Shown piece by piece: positions 34,261 to 42,259 of a stretch of DNA of 64,000 nt. The stretch lies in assembly GCF_019801605.1 (NCBI RefSeq), contig NZ_JAHVIT010000002.1, positions 1,054,001 through 1,118,000 on the forward strand. The letters run 5' to 3'. The stretch's first letter is position 1, and each line of letters begins with the position of its first letter. The DNA comes from Maritimibacter alkaliphilus. GTDB taxonomy: Bacteria > Pseudomonadota > Alphaproteobacteria > Rhodobacterales > Rhodobacteraceae. The notes beneath the pieces were generated by a model that saw nothing but the letters and a program-made list of their open reading frames with translations, was not told where the DNA came from and did no database searches. Made by a program: the position numbers and the translations under genes.

Positions 34261-34380
34261 TTCACCGCTGCGGACCGCACGCCGCCCGAAGGCGTGCATA
34301 GATCGCCCAAGACAAGCGCCGCCTTCGAAACGGGACCCTCGCCCACATTTCCGTCTTGCACGTAGTGCCCAGCCGTGGCC

Positions 34381-34452
34381 CGGTCATCCCGGTCATCCCG
34401 GTCATCCCGGTCATCCCGGTCATCCCGGTCATCCCGGTCATCCCGGTCATCC
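34381..34452. repeat. Tandem array of eight identical 9-bp units
   Basis: Eight perfect head-to-tail copies of CGGTCATCC, followed by a degenerate partial copy, lie between the CAP-domain gene and the end of dnaX. The unit is a multiple of three and reads as Asp-Asp-Arg in one minus strand frame, but no supported gene covers it. No drift between units suggests recent slippage expansion. Confidence 0.9.
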
Positions 34453-34494
34453 CGGGTCACGCATGGGCGGGGGCGCCGCGGTGAGGCGCGCGCG

Positions 34495-36413: not shown

Positions 36414-36758
36414 ATGCAGGCCGAGACCCCGGAAACCGCTTCGACATCGCGCGCTTCGCGTGCGCCCTCCGCGTCCCTTTACTGGACGCTTTTCGCCCTT
36501 TGGGGGCTGGCCTTCGTCGGCTCCTTCCTCGTGCCGCACCTGATCCCCGCGGGGCCCGGGATGCTCGTCTCCGGGATCGGGCGGGCCTTCTGGCTGGCCG
36601 GGCTGCAGTGCCTCGCCTCTCTGCTGGCGCTGGTGATTCTCGTGCGCGCCCGCGATTTCGCACCGGGCAGCCTGCCGCGCCGGGTGGCCTGGGGGCCGGC
36701 CGGGCTGGCGCTGCTGGTGGTCTGCGCGATGCTGCTGATGACGGTGACAGGCGCCTAG
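36414..36758 (+). CDS. Hypothetical three-helix membrane protein
   Basis: A 114-residue protein with a polar N terminus and three hydrophobic segments (SLYWTLFALWGLAFVGSFLV, FWLAGLQCLASLLALVILV, GLALLVVCAMLLMTVTGA). I do not recognise a family. Its codon pattern is like that of neighbouring genes. It lies between the divergent dnaX gene and the ABC transporter cassette, 188 bases upstream of the latter, so it may or may not belong to that unit. Confidence 0.6.
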   Translation: MQAETPETASTSRASRAPSASLYWTLFALWGLAFVGSFLVPHLIPAGPGMLVSGIGRAFWLAGLQCLASLLALVILVRARDFAPGSLPRRVAWGPAGLALLVVCAMLLMTVTGA

Positions 36759-36946
36759 GGATCGTCCGGCGGGCCGCGCGGAATGCGCGGGATGCGGCCA
36801 TCGCGGGCACCTTGTCGCAGCCGGGCCCGGAGAGGGCCGGTGCGCCTTGCCACCGGGCAGGGGGCCATGCATCGTGAGCCCGCGGGCCGGCGGGCACTCC
36901 GCCGCGGTTCGCAAAAGGCCCATAGGTTCAATGGTGTGCGCGTGTG

Positions 36947-37636
36947 ATGTCTCCGGTTCTGGTGCTGGATAACCTCTCCTTCGGATGGCCCGGAGCGCCC
37001 AGGGGTGTGCTCGACATCCGCAGCCTCTCTCTGGCGGCGGGGGAGAACCTGTTCCTGCGCGGTCCCAGCGGGTGCGGCAAGTCCACGCTGCTGTCGGCGA
37101 TCGCGGGTATGGTCAACGTGGGCCCCGGTCAGATCCGCGTCGCAGGTGTCGATGTCGGCATGCTGAAAGGCGGCGCACGGGACCGGTTCCGCGTCGAACA
37201 CATCGGGATGATCTTCCAGGTCTTCAACCTCGTGCCGTGGATGAGCGCGCTCGACAATGTGCAACTGCCCTGCCGCTTCTCCGCCGCACGGCGGGCCCGC
37301 GCGGGCGGCGATCCCGGGGCGGAGGCGCATCGCCTTCTCAGCGCGCTGCACCTGCCGGAGGCGGCGCACCGGGCCCCGGCCCGCACCCTCAGCATCGGCC
37401 AGCAGCAGCGCGTCGCCGCGGCCCGGGCGCTGATCGGCGCGCCGGAGCTGATCCTCGCGGACGAGCCGACCTCGGCGCTGGACGAGGACGCCAAGGCGGC
37501 CTTCGCCGACCTGCTGGCCGCCGAATGCGCGGCGGCGGGGGCGGCGCTGCTCTTCGTCAGCCATGACCGGGGGCTGGAGGGGCGCTTCGACCGGGCGCTC
37601 GACTTCCGCGACCTGAACCGGTGGATCGCGCCATGA
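36947..37636 (+). CDS. ABC transporter ATP-binding protein (MacB/LolD-like), metal cassette
   Basis: A 229-residue ATPase of the MacB/LolD type. Walker A is GPSGCGKST (residues 39-47), the Q-loop lies in GMIFQVFNLVPWMSALDNV, the signature is LSIGQQQRVA and Walker B is [16 protein letters not shown] three bases earlier could also start the protein. Its last bases overlap the permease start as ATGA, so the two subunits are translationally coupled. With the following permease and DUF3299 protein it forms a three-gene cassette similar to a zinc-responsive ABC cluster in Pseudomonas aeruginosa. Confidence 0.88.
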   Translation: MSPVLVLDNLSFGWPGAPRGVLDIRSLSLAAGENLFLRGPSGCGKSTLLSAIAGMVNVGPGQIRVAGVDVGMLKGGARDRFRVEHIGMIFQVFNLVPWMSALDNVQLPCRFSAARRARAGGDPGAEAHRLLSALHLPEAAHRAPARTLSIGQQQRVAAARALIGAPELILADEPTSALDEDAKAAFADLLAAECAAAGAALLFVSHDRGLEGRFDRALDFRDLNRWIAP

Positions 37637-39264
37637 TCGGTGTCGCGCTCGGCAGCCTGTGGAACCGGCGGTTCGTGGCGGCGCTGACCATGGCGTCGAT
37701 CGCCCTCAGCGTGGCCCTGATCCTCGGGGTGGAGCGGCTGCGCACCGAGGCGCGCGACAGTTTCGCCAATTCCGCCTCGGGCATCGACCTGATCGTCGCG
37801 GCGCGGGGCAACCCGGTGCAGATCCTCATGGCGACGGTCTTCGGCGTGGGCTCCGCCGGGCCCGGGATCAGCCGCGACACCTACGAGATGGTCGCCGCCC
37901 GGCCTGAGGTCGCCTGGGCAGTGCCGATGCAGATGGGCGACAACCATCGCGGTTTCCCGGTGATCGGAACGACCGATGCCTATTTCACCCGCCTGCGCCA
38001 CAGTGGCGGCCAGCCGCTTGTCTTCGCGCAGGGCGTGCCTTTCGAGGAAGGCGATGCGGCGGGCGCCGTGGTGGGGGCCGAGGTGGCCGCCCGGTTCGGC
38101 TATGCGCCCGGGACAGTCATCGTGAATGCCCATGGCGCCGGGGCCGTCGCCTTCGATGTGCATGAGGACGCGCCCTTCACCATCACCGGTGTGCTGGAGC
38201 GGACCGGCACCGCGGTGGACCGGATGGTGCTGGTCTCGCTGGCCGGGTTCGATGCGCTGCACGCGGCGCGCGGGCCGGTGGCGGCGGATCCCTTCGACGA
38301 TCCGCTGGCAGGAAGCGGTCTCGCCGCGCCGGGCGCCGGTGAGCCCGCCATGCCAGGGGGGCTCGCCGTGGAAGATGATGCAACGCCGGAAGGGCACGGG
38401 GGGCATCCGGTGGACCATGTCCCGGAGGCCGAGGCGGCGCAGGACGCCGATCATGCCCAAGACGTTGATCACGCGCATGAGGCCGACCTCTCCGCAGCCG
38501 AAGATCACGAGCATGACCCCGACCACGATATGGCGACGGACCACGCCCATGATGTCAGCCCAGCTGCCGGGGGGTCAGAGGGGCAGGCGGATCACGGTGA
38601 TCACGATCACGACGACCCCGAGCATGACGACCACGACGGCCACGACCACGACGACCACGGGCACGGGGCGGAGGACGTCCCCGATGCGCACGCCGGTCAC
38701 GAACACACACCCGACCTGCTGAATGCGGTCTACGTCGGGCTGGCGGATCGCGGGGCGGTCCTCGGCCTCCAACGCGCCTTCTCGGAGTACCGGGGTGAGG
38801 CGATTTCGGCCGTGCTGCCCAATGTCGCCCTGCTGGAACTCTGGTCGATCACCGGCACGGCGGAGACGGCGCTGCAACTGATGGCCTGGGCCGTGGCGTT
38901 GGCGGGGATCACCGGCATGGTGGTCATGCTGAGTGCGACGCTGGAGGCCCGACGGCGCGAGTTCGCGATCCTGCGGTCGGTGGGGGCGACGCCCGCGCGG
39001 GTCTTTGCGCTGATCCTGATCGAGGCGGCGGTTCTGACGCTGGGCGGGCTGGCGCTCGGCTCCCTTCTGCTGACCGTGGCGACCCTGCTGGCCGACCCGA
39101 TCCTTTCGGCCCGCTTCGGGATGCGCATCGGTGCGGGCTTGGCGGGGCGGGGAGAGCTTGCCATGATGGGGGCGATCCTGCTGGCGGGACTCGCCGCCGC
39201 GCTGCTGCCCGCGCTGCGGGTCTACCGGATGACACTCGCCGACGGGCTGAGCCCGCGCATGTAA
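37633..39264 (+). CDS. MacB/FtsX-type ABC permease with histidine-rich periplasmic insert
   Basis: A 543-residue FtsX-type permease. One transmembrane helix starts the protein (FVAALTMASIALSVALILGV), a large periplasmic domain follows, and three helices end it (LMAWAVALAGITGMVVML, FALILIEAAVLTLGGLALGSLLL, GAILLAGLAAALLPALRVY). Within the periplasmic domain, about residues 253-360 form an Asp/His-rich insert with some 23 histidines, many as HDHDD or DHAHE, characteristic of zinc, copper or nickel binding. Ordinary MacB-like permeases lack it. It overlaps the ATPase gene by four bases and precedes a DUF3299 gene, so I infer a metal-related transporter. Confidence 0.85.
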   Translation: MIGVALGSLWNRRFVAALTMASIALSVALILGVERLRTEARDSFANSASGIDLIVAARGNPVQILMATVFGVGSAGPGISRDTYEMVAARPEVAWAVPMQMGDNHRGFPVIGTTDAYFTRLRHSGGQPLVFAQGVPFEEGDAAGAVVGAEVAARFGYAPGTVIVNAHGAGAVAFDVHEDAPFTITGVLERTGTAVDRMVLVSLAGFDALHAARGPVAADPFDDPLAGSGLAAPGAGEPAMPGGLAVEDDATPEGHGGHPVDHVPEAEAAQDADHAQDVDHAHEADLSAAEDHEHDPDHDMATDHAHDVSPAAGGSEGQADHGDHDHDDPEHDDHDGHDHDDHGHGAEDVPDAHAGHEHTPDLLNAVYVGLADRGAVLGLQRAFSEYRGEAISAVLPNVALLELWSITGTAETALQLMAWAVALAGITGMVVMLSATLEARRREFAILRSVGATPARVFALILIEAAVLTLGGLALGSLLLTVATLLADPILSARFGMRIGAGLAGRGELAMMGAILLAGLAAALLPALRVYRMTLADGLSPRM

Positions 39265-39316
39265 GACTGAACGGGACCAGGGCCGGGCTTCCGGCGGAGA
39301 TGAAGGGACCCTACCG

Positions 39317-39946
39317 ATGACGACGCGACCTCTGCTGCTTTCCGCCTTCCTCCTCGCGGCCGGCGCCTCCGCTCTATGGGCCACACCGCGCGAGCTTTCC
39401 TGGGCGGATCTCTCCCCGCCGAGCACGGCGCTGGAAAATCCCTTCGAGAACCTGACGCCCGACCAGCTCGACACCCTGCGCGCCATCGTGCGGATCGAGA
39501 GTGGCGGCGGTGACATGGAGAAGGCGCAGGCCCTGCGGGCGGAGATGGCCACGCAGGGGCTCGACGTGGATGCCCTCTTCGCGGCGCGCACGGCGATCAT
39601 CGAGAACCGCAGCCGTGCGGCTTCGGCGGTCAGCACCGACCTGCTGGGCGAGGACGTGCGGATGCCGGGCTACCTGCTGGCGCTGGAGTTTCGCGATGGC
39701 AAGGCGGTGGAGTTCCTGCTTGTTCCCACGGTGGGCGCCTGCATCCACACCCCGCCGCCGCCCGCCAACCAGATGATCCACGTCCGCTATCCGGAAGGTA
39801 TCGAGGTCGCCGGGCTCTATACCGCAGTCTGGATCGAGGGCACGCTGGCGATGGAGACCTCGGTCCAGACGGTGCGCTATTCGGACGGCCAGTCCAATGT
39901 GGCGGTAAGCTACATGATGCAGCCGGACGCCGTGACGCTCTACTGA
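39317..39946 (+). CDS. DUF3299 domain periplasmic protein, metal cassette
   Basis: A 209-residue secreted protein: a signal peptide (LLLSAFLLAAGASALWA), then the DUF3299 domain around residues 115-200 with the family motif MPGYLLALEFRDGKAVEFLLVP and GACIHTPPPPANQMIHV. The single Cys and His in GACIHTPPPP are typical of the family and could bind metal. It lies 52 bases after the His-rich permease and is probably part of the same operon. No enzyme activity has been assigned to the family that I know of. Confidence 0.85.
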   Translation: MTTRPLLLSAFLLAAGASALWATPRELSWADLSPPSTALENPFENLTPDQLDTLRAIVRIESGGGDMEKAQALRAEMATQGLDVDALFAARTAIIENRSRAASAVSTDLLGEDVRMPGYLLALEFRDGKAVEFLLVPTVGACIHTPPPPANQMIHVRYPEGIEVAGLYTAVWIEGTLAMETSVQTVRYSDGQSNVAVSYMMQPDAVTLY

Positions 39947-40047: not shown

Positions 40048-40067
40048 ACGAATGGCGGGGATAAGGT

Positions 40068-40161
40068 GAGAGGCTGGACAACGACCCAAGCGGGGCTCGT
40101 TACGGCTGCTTCCTTCCGGACCTGACCGGGTTGGCGAGGTGCCTGCCCGCGCCAACCTCTC
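40068..40161 (-). ncRNA. ffs: Signal recognition particle RNA, small 4.5S-type
   Basis: RNA scaffold of the bacterial signal recognition particle, partner of Ffh. Read on the minus strand it contains the universal Ffh-binding sequence GGTCAGGTCCGGAAGGAAGC followed by AGCC. The ends are set by pairing of GAGAGGTTGG (40161-40152) with CCAGCCTCTC (40077-40068), giving about 94 bases, right for the short form. A good promoter lies directly upstream. The predicted open frames over this stretch are artefacts. Confidence 0.95.
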
Positions 40162-40168
40162 AAGCGGC

Positions 40169-40279: not shown

Positions 40280-42259
40280 TCAGAGCGTGATGCGGAACCG
40301 CGCGAAACCGTCGGGGCCCTCGCCCGCCGGTTCGATCTGCACGCCCTTCACGTCGGCGGCATATTGCGTCGCCTTGGGGCCGGTGTCGAAGAGAACGGTC
40401 GTGCCGGGTATCGGCGCGAAGGTCCAGTTGGCATCGGCGGAGGGCTCGATGGTGCCCTGTTCCACGATGTAGCGCACGATCACGTCGCGGTTGGTGTCCG
40501 GGCCCTCGAAGATGATCGTGTCGCCCATGGCGCCGGGGAAGCTGCCGCCGCCGGAGGCGCGGTAATTGTTGGTGGCCACGACGAATTCCATGTCGTCGGT
40601 CACCGGCTGGCCCTCGTAGGTCAGGTTCACGATCCGCGTGGCCTCCGCATCGGCCAGCTCGCCCTTGGCGTTGAAGCGTGAGGGCTGGCTCAGGTCGATC
40701 TGGTAGCTGACCCCGTCCATCACGTCGAAGTTGTAGCTCGGGAACGCGGTGTTCAGCAGCAGCTGGTCCGCCTCTCCGGGGGTGATCTGGTTGAACATCC
40801 CGGCGGACCGCTCCAGCCAGCCCTTGAGCTGCGCGCCGGTGATCTTCACCGCGCGGATCGTGTTGGGATAGAGATAGAGATCGGACACGTTCTTGATCGC
40901 CACGTCGCCCACGGGCACGTCGGTGTAGTAGTCCGGGCCGCCGCGGCCCCCGGCCTTGAAGGGCGCCGCAGCCGAGAGCAGGGGCAGGTCGGCGTATTTC
41001 GTGCCGGCCAGCATCTGCTTGATGTACCAGGTCTGCGCGATCGAGACGATCTGCACCGAGGGATCGTCGGCCACGAGGGCAAAGTAGGAATAGAGCGGGG
41101 CCGAGGTCTTGCCCACGGCGCGGCGCACATAGGCCAGGGTTTCCTCGTGCTGCTGCCGGACGGAGCTTTCGACCGTGTCGACGCTTTCCACCAGCGGGGT
41201 GATCGAACGGTCCTCGTTGCGCTTGTAGATCGGCCGGGTGGCGACCTCGTGCATCAGCACGCGCCAGCCGCCGCCGTCGCGTTCCAGCATCAGGTCGATC
41301 ACGCCGAGGTGCGAGCCCCAGAAGCCGCCCATGGTGGCGGGCTTGCCGTGGATCTCGCCTTTGGTGGCGTCCACGGCGGCAAAGCCATCATAGGTGGGCG
41401 ACGGGAAGACGAGGTGCGAGTGGCCGGTGAGCAGCGCGTCGATTCCCTCGACCTCCGCCAGCGGGACGGAGGCGTTCTCCATCCCCTCGGTGTGATCGGC
41501 GGACCCGATGCCGGAGTGGCTGAGCGCGATGATGATGTCGGCGCCTTCCTCTTTCATCTGGGGCACGTAGGCGCGGGCGGTCTCGACGATGTCGCGGGTC
41601 TTCACGTTGCCTTCGAGGTGCTTGCGGTCCCAGTTCATGATCTGCGGCGGCACGAAGCCGATCAGGCCCACGCGGATCGGATGCTCCACGCCCGAGCCGT
41701 CGGTAACCATCCGGTCGAGGATCACGTAGGGCTTCATCAGGGGTTTGTCGCCGGTCGGGTTGGCGGCCATCTCCTTGACCACGTTGGCCGAGATGACGGG
41801 GAAGTTGGCGCCCGCGACCGACTTCATCAGGAAGTCGAGCCCGTAGTTGAACTCGTGGTTGCCCAGCGTCGAGGCATCGAAGCCGAGGGTGTTCATGGCG
41901 GCGATCACCGGGTGGAGGTCGCCCTCCTTCATCCCGCGCTCATAGGCGATGTAGTCCCCCAGCGGGTTGCCCTGCAGGAAGTCGCCATTGTCCAGCAGCA
42001 TGGAGTTGGTCGCCTCGGCGCGGATGTCAGCCACATGGGCCGCGGTGCGCGCCAGGCCCACGGTATCGTCGGGCCGGTCAGCGTAATAATTGTACGGGAA
42101 GACATGCACGTGCAGGTCCGTCGTCTCCATGATGCGGAGATGGGCCTGGTTCACGGCCGCCCGGGCCGAGAAGGGGTGCAGGCTGAGCAAGGATGCGCCC
42201 GCCATGGTCTGTGCCAGAAAACTCCGGCGCGAAAGGACTTTGCTTCTAAACGTGGTCAT
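40280..42259 (-). CDS. cpdB: Bifunctional 2',3'-cyclic-nucleotide 2'-phosphodiesterase / 3'-nucleotidase
   Basis: A 659-residue periplasmic enzyme that hydrolyses 2',3'-cyclic nucleotides from RNA breakdown to nucleosides and phosphate. A twin-arginine-like signal (SRRSFLAQTMAGASLL) starts it. The calcineurin-like half carries metal motifs ETTDLHVHVFPY, DNGDFLQGNP, LGNHEFNYGLDF and GHSHLVFPSP. The C-terminal 5'-nucleotidase domain (from about residue 370) ends with NNYRASGGGSFP. A Tat signal fits cofactor loading before export. It is monocistronic and could supply phosphate and nucleosides to the cell. Confidence 0.93.
   Translation of the reverse strand: MTTFRSKVLSRRSFLAQTMAGASLLSLHPFSARAAVNQAHLRIMETTDLHVHVFPYNYYADRPDDTVGLARTAAHVADIRAEATNSMLLDNGDFLQGNPLGDYIAYERGMKEGDLHPVIAAMNTLGFDASTLGNHEFNYGLDFLMKSVAGANFPVISANVVKEMAANPTGDKPLMKPYVILDRMVTDGSGVEHPIRVGLIGFVPPQIMNWDRKHLEGNVKTRDIVETARAYVPQMKEEGADIIIALSHSGIGSADHTEGMENASVPLAEVEGIDALLTGHSHLVFPSPTYDGFAAVDATKGEIHGKPATMGGFWGSHLGVIDLMLERDGGGWRVLMHEVATRPIYKRNEDRSITPLVESVDTVESSVRQQHEETLAYVRRAVGKTSAPLYSYFALVADDPSVQIVSIAQTWYIKQMLAGTKYADLPLLSAAAPFKAGGRGGPDYYTDVPVGDVAIKNVSDLYLYPNTIRAVKITGAQLKGWLERSAGMFNQITPGEADQLLLNTAFPSYNFDVMDGVSYQIDLSQPSRFNAKGELADAEATRIVNLTYEGQPVTDDMEFVVATNNYRASGGGSFPGAMGDTIIFEGPDTNRDVIVRYIVEQGTIEPSADANWTFAPIPGTTVLFDTGPKATQYAADVKGVQIEPAGEGPDGFARFRITL

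Follow-up and report, generated by a model that had tools for sequence, protein, structure and literature searches.

What might an operon do whose MacB-type permease carries a long histidine-rich loop? The question is raised by three genes at positions 36947-39946 of the 64,000-nucleotide stretch of the Maritimibacter alkaliphilus genome analysed here (hereafter the window; G000:C2:1054001-1118000; genome size 4.9 Mb). A first-pass annotation of this DNA had described an ATP-binding cassette (ABC) ATPase overlapping a permease with a His-rich insert and followed by a secreted DUF3299 protein, and had likened the set to PA4063-PA4066 of Pseudomonas aeruginosa as a candidate zinc or copper system. 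Open reading frames (ORFs) and Pfam matches confirmed this layout (Table 1), and the likeness held, since ATPase, MacB-fold permease and DUF3299 protein are all present. As in the Zrg and PA4063-4066 systems, the LolD-like ATPase gene adjoins the permease gene, here with an overlap of ATGA, and the DUF3299 gene lies within the operon. PF10986 (ZrgA), which also marks those systems, has 0 matches in the whole window genome. The operon is a ZrgA-less (cis-type) variant of the Zrg kind. We consider it likely that it handles metal, with the loop taking the place of ZrgA.

Distribution of the Loop and of ZrgA

We surveyed 295 genomes of the family, 83 of which held a permease match at 1e-10 (G and L numbers below denote genomes and loci). 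Close orthologues (type A; 60-69% identity) were present in 11 genomes besides that of the window, and more distant permeases (42-54% identity in the N-terminal part) in 54 genomes among the matches listed. The 28 distant loci that were fetched (type B) encode a permease core of 415-420 amino acids with no insert and 0-1 His beyond residue H210. PF10986 was present in 10 of the 18 family genomes searched, always beside a type-B locus, and in these 18 no ZrgA was found in genomes with type A alone. Five family genomes carry both types (G005, G038, G141, G200, and G210), and the type-A permease of G210 (L042) lacks the insert. ZrgA without a type-B permease among the family matches listed was seen in G043 and G118 and, more weakly, in G020 and G181.

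The same alternation was observed across the phylum. In a sample of 398 genomes, 92 matched the type-A alignment and 65 scored above the PF10986 cut-off; 80 of the 92 permeases were examined, the 12 weak matches being left out. At least three His residues followed H210 in 14 permeases, and ZrgA occurred in 0 of those 14 genomes; fewer than three followed it in 65 permeases, and 62 of those 65 genomes held ZrgA. G210 stands outside this tally: its row is the type-A permease, and its ZrgA belongs to the other locus. Loop and ZrgA occurred together in 0 genomes at His thresholds of 3 to 8, and in one at a threshold of 2. Two broken or masked permeases (G309 and G571) were counted among the 14 and excluded from the tree and the Fisher test below. 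Their loci, L152 and L153, encode insert-type permeases in two pieces or with masked bases, and the G309 match has an in-frame stop.

Of a named set of 40 loci, 39 are type A; nearly all of these come from Rhodobacterales (Ruegeria, Shimia, Tropicimonas, Defluviimonas, and others), the rest from Roseibium aggregatum and two otherwise-named metagenome bins. At least five His residues followed H210 in 34 of 38 full-length named orthologues; L090, cut off by its contig, was left out of this count. The loop-poor loci were L097 and L102 (0 His), L110 (3), and L101 (4). ZrgA was found elsewhere in 4/4 named type-A genomes with at most four loop His, compared with 10/30 others (p 0.02; 34 genomes), a result that is weak alone because three of the four loop-poor genomes are Shimia. 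These ZrgA counts omit L108, L073, L078, L090, and L098 (the last being the same strain as L087). Insert-less orthologues in an unchanged ATPase-permease-DUF3299 context, which the first-pass annotation had held would speak against a metal role, were indeed found (L042, L097 of Shimia haliotis, and L102 of Shimia marina), yet ZrgA is present elsewhere in all three genomes.

A midpoint-rooted tree of 106 permeases, built with the loop columns removed, placed type A among ZrgA-type permeases. The loop trait needs 10 changes on this tree, at least six of them forced by well supported branches; single placements are unsure because several branches are long. For the type-A clade the simplest reading is a single gain followed by losses in Shimia; the remaining changes belong to other families, some within the class and some beyond it. 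The pattern is one of repeated switching between separate and built-in putative metal collectors, not of a one-off fusion. The earlier proposal that the metal-binding part had been fused into the permease thus stands in one respect, as loop and ZrgA alternate between operons, and falls in another: a true ZrgA-permease fusion was rejected, the insert being of low complexity, predicted to be disordered and very variable rather than a ferredoxin-like ZrgA domain, with no single fusion on the tree and no PF10986 match in the genome.

Composition of the Loop and Conserved Residues

In 2000 shuffles of the permease, the highest His count per 108-residue stretch was 16, compared with the 23 observed in the loop. 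The permease has 28 His in total, and outside the loop only H105, H123, H167, H177, and H210. It has no Cys, and residues 200-370 contain two Met; because of this composition we hold copper, the other metal first suggested, to be an unlikely substrate. The loop is predicted to be disordered, with a predicted local distance difference test (pLDDT) value below 50 over most of residues 227-356, between a helix at 203-210 and a strand at 365-370, and contains short tandem repeats at 38603-38659. The variable segment spans mostly 28-30 residues in ZrgA-type relatives and 34-147 residues across full-length named type-A loci. Comparison with orthologues, as first recommended, showed that 10 of 11 further close orthologues in the family sample carry the insert at the same place, with 8-26 His in the segment. 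In L075 (Rhodobacteraceae bacterium Alg231_30) the loop consists chiefly of AHDEGHEHD/AHDEGHDHD repeats, which looks like a recent repeat expansion.

Six residues (D52, D103, H167, H177, D196, and H210) were invariant in 108/108 permeases, and the same six are kept in 17/17 fetched distant paralogues. In the permease model, D103 and H105 lie near the turn of a hairpin different from that bearing H167 and H177. This invariant Asp/His set, including H210 directly before the loop, is a candidate metal site, and its residues may meet in space.

Table 1. Coordinates of the operon genes and of features within the permease gene (positions in the window).
Feature	Position	Strand	Basis or remark
ABC ATPase, LolD/MacB-like	36947-37636	+	PF00005 5.6e-29; ATG start, alternative GTG at 36944
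MacB-fold permease, 543 amino acids, ZrgB/PA4065-like	37633-39264	+	PF02687 2.2e-13, PF12704 5.9e-11; ATG start
GD(N/S)H motif: D103 (108/108), H105 (94/108; otherwise F, Y or W)	37939-37947	+	alignment
H167 and H177, each 108/108, one near either end of the same predicted beta-hairpin	38131-38163	+	alignment, model
H210, 108/108, final residue of predicted helix 203-210, directly before the variable segment	38260-38262	+	alignment, model
Whole variable segment, residues 211-363, from after H210 to strand 365-370	38263-38721	+	alignments
His/Asp-rich disordered loop (predicted), permease residues 253-360	38389-38712	+	23 His and 25 Asp per 108 residues
DUF3299 protein, ZrgE/PA4066-like, secreted	39317-39946	+	PF11736 4.6e-34; signal judged by eye

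Predicted Structures and Proposed Mechanism

The AlphaFold2 model of the permease (35 sequences, mean pLDDT 75.7) has long helices at 2-47, 396-439, 454-495, and 506-537, which we read as four transmembrane helices. Its top Foldseek match was Acinetobacter baumannii MacB (5gko; E 6e-12, TM-score 0.48), with further matches to LolCDE, MacB, and the heme exporter HrtBA; by sequence, residues 1-230 matched solved structures no better than chance. The DUF3299 model (mean pLDDT 89.2) matches the PA4066 structure 4hsp and has an extra helical stretch at about residues 48-103. C142 and H144 of this protein are invariant in the 26 sequences of its alignment (A3; GACIHxPPPPANQ).

MacB and LolCDE work by mechanotransmission. 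We propose that the MacB-fold ABC machine of the window would handle zinc, possibly also cobalt, at the periplasmic side. The disordered His/Asp loop would gather and buffer metal, substituting for ZrgA, and would pass it to the nearby conserved Asp/His site of the periplasmic domain (D103, H105, H167, H177, and H210). ATP hydrolysis would then move this domain and pass the metal to an acceptor, most likely an exported metalloenzyme that it reaches through the DUF3299 protein, a role like that of NosDFY, an ABC machine that serves the maturation of nitrous oxide reductase (PMC7660919). Metal binding, the choice of metal, its direction, and its acceptor are all inferred. That the metal is handed over to exported enzymes, and neither imported nor exported, is put forward tentatively, at somewhat less than even chances.

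Zinc Regulation and the Case for Import

Zinc import offers a different role for the loop: it would be a built-in substrate-binding part of a permease that moves zinc into the cytoplasm, as proposed for ZrgABC. In the accessible portions of the Vibrio reports, low zinc impairs the growth of zrg mutants and Zur represses the operons (PMC9820375, PMC9817125), ZrgA being needed for low-zinc growth of a V. cholerae znuA mutant (PMC9820375). We therefore scanned for Zur-like sites, defined as at least 11 matches to the 14 positions of TGTTATANTATAACA, over 1300 bp for type B (to include zrgA) and 400 bp for type A. Such sites were present at 21/28 type-B loci, as importers of this kind would have it, vs 3/50 type-A loci, where about eight genomes occur twice (in the family and named sets), so that 3/50 amounts to about 2/42; shuffled sequence reaches this score in about 2% (type-B scan) and 1% (type-A scan) of cases. 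L143 and L152, insert-type loci from outside the class, have Zur-like boxes, which we count in favour of metal handling with a loop in place of ZrgA. At type-A loci where the ATPase gene closely follows an amidohydrolase gene, the promoter may be located beyond the 400 bp scanned.

At the window locus itself, the best Zur-like match within 400 bp upstream was 6/14 (consensus scan only), compared with 11/14 in the znuA-zur intergenic region of the same genome. A response to zinc limitation, as anticipated in the first-pass annotation, is therefore not supported here. The znu site is flanked on one side by znuA and on the other by a Zur-like gene (PF01475 0.0007, under the cut-off), which is followed by znuC- and znuB-like genes. 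Strict Zur patterns, searched up to 1800 bp, were found at 0 type-A loci, including that of the window, and at 6/28 type-B loci; we rejected them as a weak yardstick, as they also missed the genome's own znu site. The genome already holds two ZnuA-type binding proteins with ABC genes, away from the operon, and the predicted fold is that of MacB, LolCDE, and HrtBA, a class that to our knowledge does not import. Together with the lack of a Zur-like site at the window locus, these features make import an unlikely function.

Gene Neighborhoods and Possible Export or Hand-Over

The case for hand-over comes from enzyme-gene neighborhoods. Amidohydrolase genes occur within 5 kb of 18/39 named type-A loci vs 2/28 type-B loci (p 0.0009), a control that may miss other amidohydrolases because the BLAST queries came from type-A neighborhoods. 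Several of these amidohydrolases start with an export-signal-like stretch (by eye), and in several type-A loci the amidohydrolase gene ends about 40 bp before the ATPase gene. A paralogue in the same genome (L066 6135-10323; G000:C2, about 1352134-1356322) has the order alkaline phosphatase, small CPFC-motif protein, ATPase, and permease, and this order recurs in 12/17 fetched family paralogue loci. The distant insert-bearing loci L146 and L147 also adjoin an alkaline phosphatase gene. Both alkaline phosphatases and amidohydrolases presumably use zinc.

Two further observations concern these neighborhoods. A second, different DUF3299 gene (231-277 amino acids) lies a few kb upstream among the amidohydrolase genes of L034, L036, L038, L039, and L105. 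The insert-type ABC genes of L150 and L204 are near a MerC-family gene and, by eye, a gene for a His-rich CDF-type transporter.

It is possible, if on the doubtful side, that a single superfamily of ATP-driven periplasmic zinc-insertion machines unites Zrg and type A with the alkaline-phosphatase-linked paralogues. In each, a MacB-fold permease with an invariant Asp/His site would receive metal from a His-rich collector, either separate (ZrgA, in trans) or built in (the loop, in cis), and a small partner protein would help to serve exported zinc enzymes such as alkaline phosphatase or amidohydrolases. PF11736 does match the small partner proteins of L145 and L215, at about 1e-6. We also asked whether DUF3299 and the small partner of the alkaline phosphatase group are one family, and dropped the idea as not shown (hhalign probability 7, 16 columns).

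Export has a comparably low standing to import. The permease would here expel a metal-chelator complex or other ligand, as reported for PA4064-PA4065, with the loop only sensing or scavenging metal; excerpts of the PA4064-PA4065 study describe a split MacB exporting pyochelin-cobalt, with PA4065 mutants in a zinc-starved background accumulating pyochelin and cobalt (PMC11481552). The MacB fold of the permease fits this role, as does an HlyD-type adaptor gene that shares 4 bp with the ATPase gene at six of the 39 named loci; these six, from Ruegeria and Falsiruegeria, also carry a metallo-beta-lactamase-fold gene. The adaptor gene is conserved in only those six loci, however, and the invariant Asp/His set is common to the lineages and to the alkaline-phosphatase-linked paralogues, and therefore fits one special chelator poorly. 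We regard export as improbable. A neutral origin of the loop, by expansion of low-complexity sequence at a tolerant place on the surface of an ordinary MacB-like transporter, is very unlikely, since its His/Asp/Glu-rich composition recurs in separate lineages and its presence goes with the absence of ZrgA from the operon, for all its widely varying length, its repeats, and its absence from some Shimia.

Several results nonetheless weigh against a zinc-handling machine with a loop in place of ZrgA. The association of loop and ZrgA (Fisher 1.2e-11, 77 intact rows) ignores kinship; in kinship-aware independent pairs, the two traits went opposite ways in 2-4 of five and the same way in none, so the trend was never reversed, but with only five pairs it was not significant. 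ZrgA is also missing from three of the loop-poor genomes (G539 and the distant G646 and G668), and G503 and G412 of the phylum sample have ZrgA but no permease match. Nor does the exclusion extend to whole genomes of Rhodobacterales, ZrgA lying at another locus in 10/30 full-loop named genomes and in G005, G038, G141, and G200; it holds per operon and not per genome, because in some Rhodobacterales there are two loci, one of each kind. The His-rich part of V. cholerae ZrgA was dispensable, according to the part of the report available (PMC9820375). No amidohydrolase was found by BLAST within 5 kb of 21/39 named type-A loci, and the operon in the window holds no exported zinc enzyme; a metallophosphoesterase gene only converges on it. 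The reach of the type-B control and the adaptor overlap, which favors export, count on the same side. Taken as a whole, a periplasmic zinc-handling machine with the loop in place of ZrgA, and with ATP-driven hand-over favored but unproven, is our best explanation, and we give it about even chances.

Surroundings of the Operon

The best NCBIfam matches of the ATPase were DevA, LolD, YbbA, and FtsE, each under its own cut-off. Upstream of it, a small ORF at 36414-36758 had no convincing match in Pfam or NCBIfam. Just downstream of the operon is a small bacterial signal recognition particle RNA at 40064-40162 (- strand), and a 5'-nucleotidase/metallophosphoesterase gene with an export-signal-like start converges on the operon (40280-42259, - strand). 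A perfect 9-bp tandem repeat of 8.6 copies was found at 34379-34455, between a CAP-domain gene and dnaX.

Significance and Comparison With Known Systems

Searches of the open-access literature turned up nothing on a His-rich loop in Zrg-type permeases, and nothing on how such a loop alternates with ZrgA or on the conserved residues. The function of ZrgBC/PA4064-4065 is disputed between zinc import and pyochelin-cobalt export, and a built-in loop makes testing easier. The swap of collectors beside invariant candidate ligands points to the expected docking place of ZrgA and to residues to change. The link to alkaline phosphatase operons hints that ATP may have to drive the supply of metal to exported zinc enzymes, and we know of no such ATP-driven supplier established for zinc.

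Among known systems, NosDFY resembles the operon in its proposed way of working only (periplasmic metal-site maturation), as an analogy of function. ZnuABC importers (Cluster A-I) differ in having a ZnuA-type binding protein, which the operon lacks, the genome's two being encoded elsewhere. MacB, LolCDE, and HrtBA (type VII ABC transporters) share the predicted fold and topology at modest TM-scores (best 0.48). Compared with MacB, ATPase and permease are here separate genes, the His-rich loop is added, and no MacA-type adaptor was found among the neighboring ORFs scanned. The PA4063-PA4066 system shares the split MacB pair and a DUF3299 protein, whose model matches that of PA4066; it differs in that PA4063, which binds zinc according to the portion of a report available (PMC8561739), stands alone as a protein that has His-rich loops and a fold of its own, and in that export of pyochelin-cobalt is reported for PA4064-4065. 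ZrgA genes lie at most five genes from ABC genes in 97% of cases, as given in the accessible part of a survey (PMC7731109). With respect to ZrgABCDE of Vibrio cholerae and V. parahaemolyticus, the window genome has no ZrgA match, carries the His-rich element in the permease, and shows no Zur-like site at the operon; its DUF3299 protein is longer by a helical stretch, although long DUF3299 ORFs also occur in some ZrgA-type relatives, such as L149 and L158. What the two have in common is a LolD-like ATPase, a MacB-like permease, a DUF3299 protein (ZrgE), and a His-rich element on the periplasmic face.

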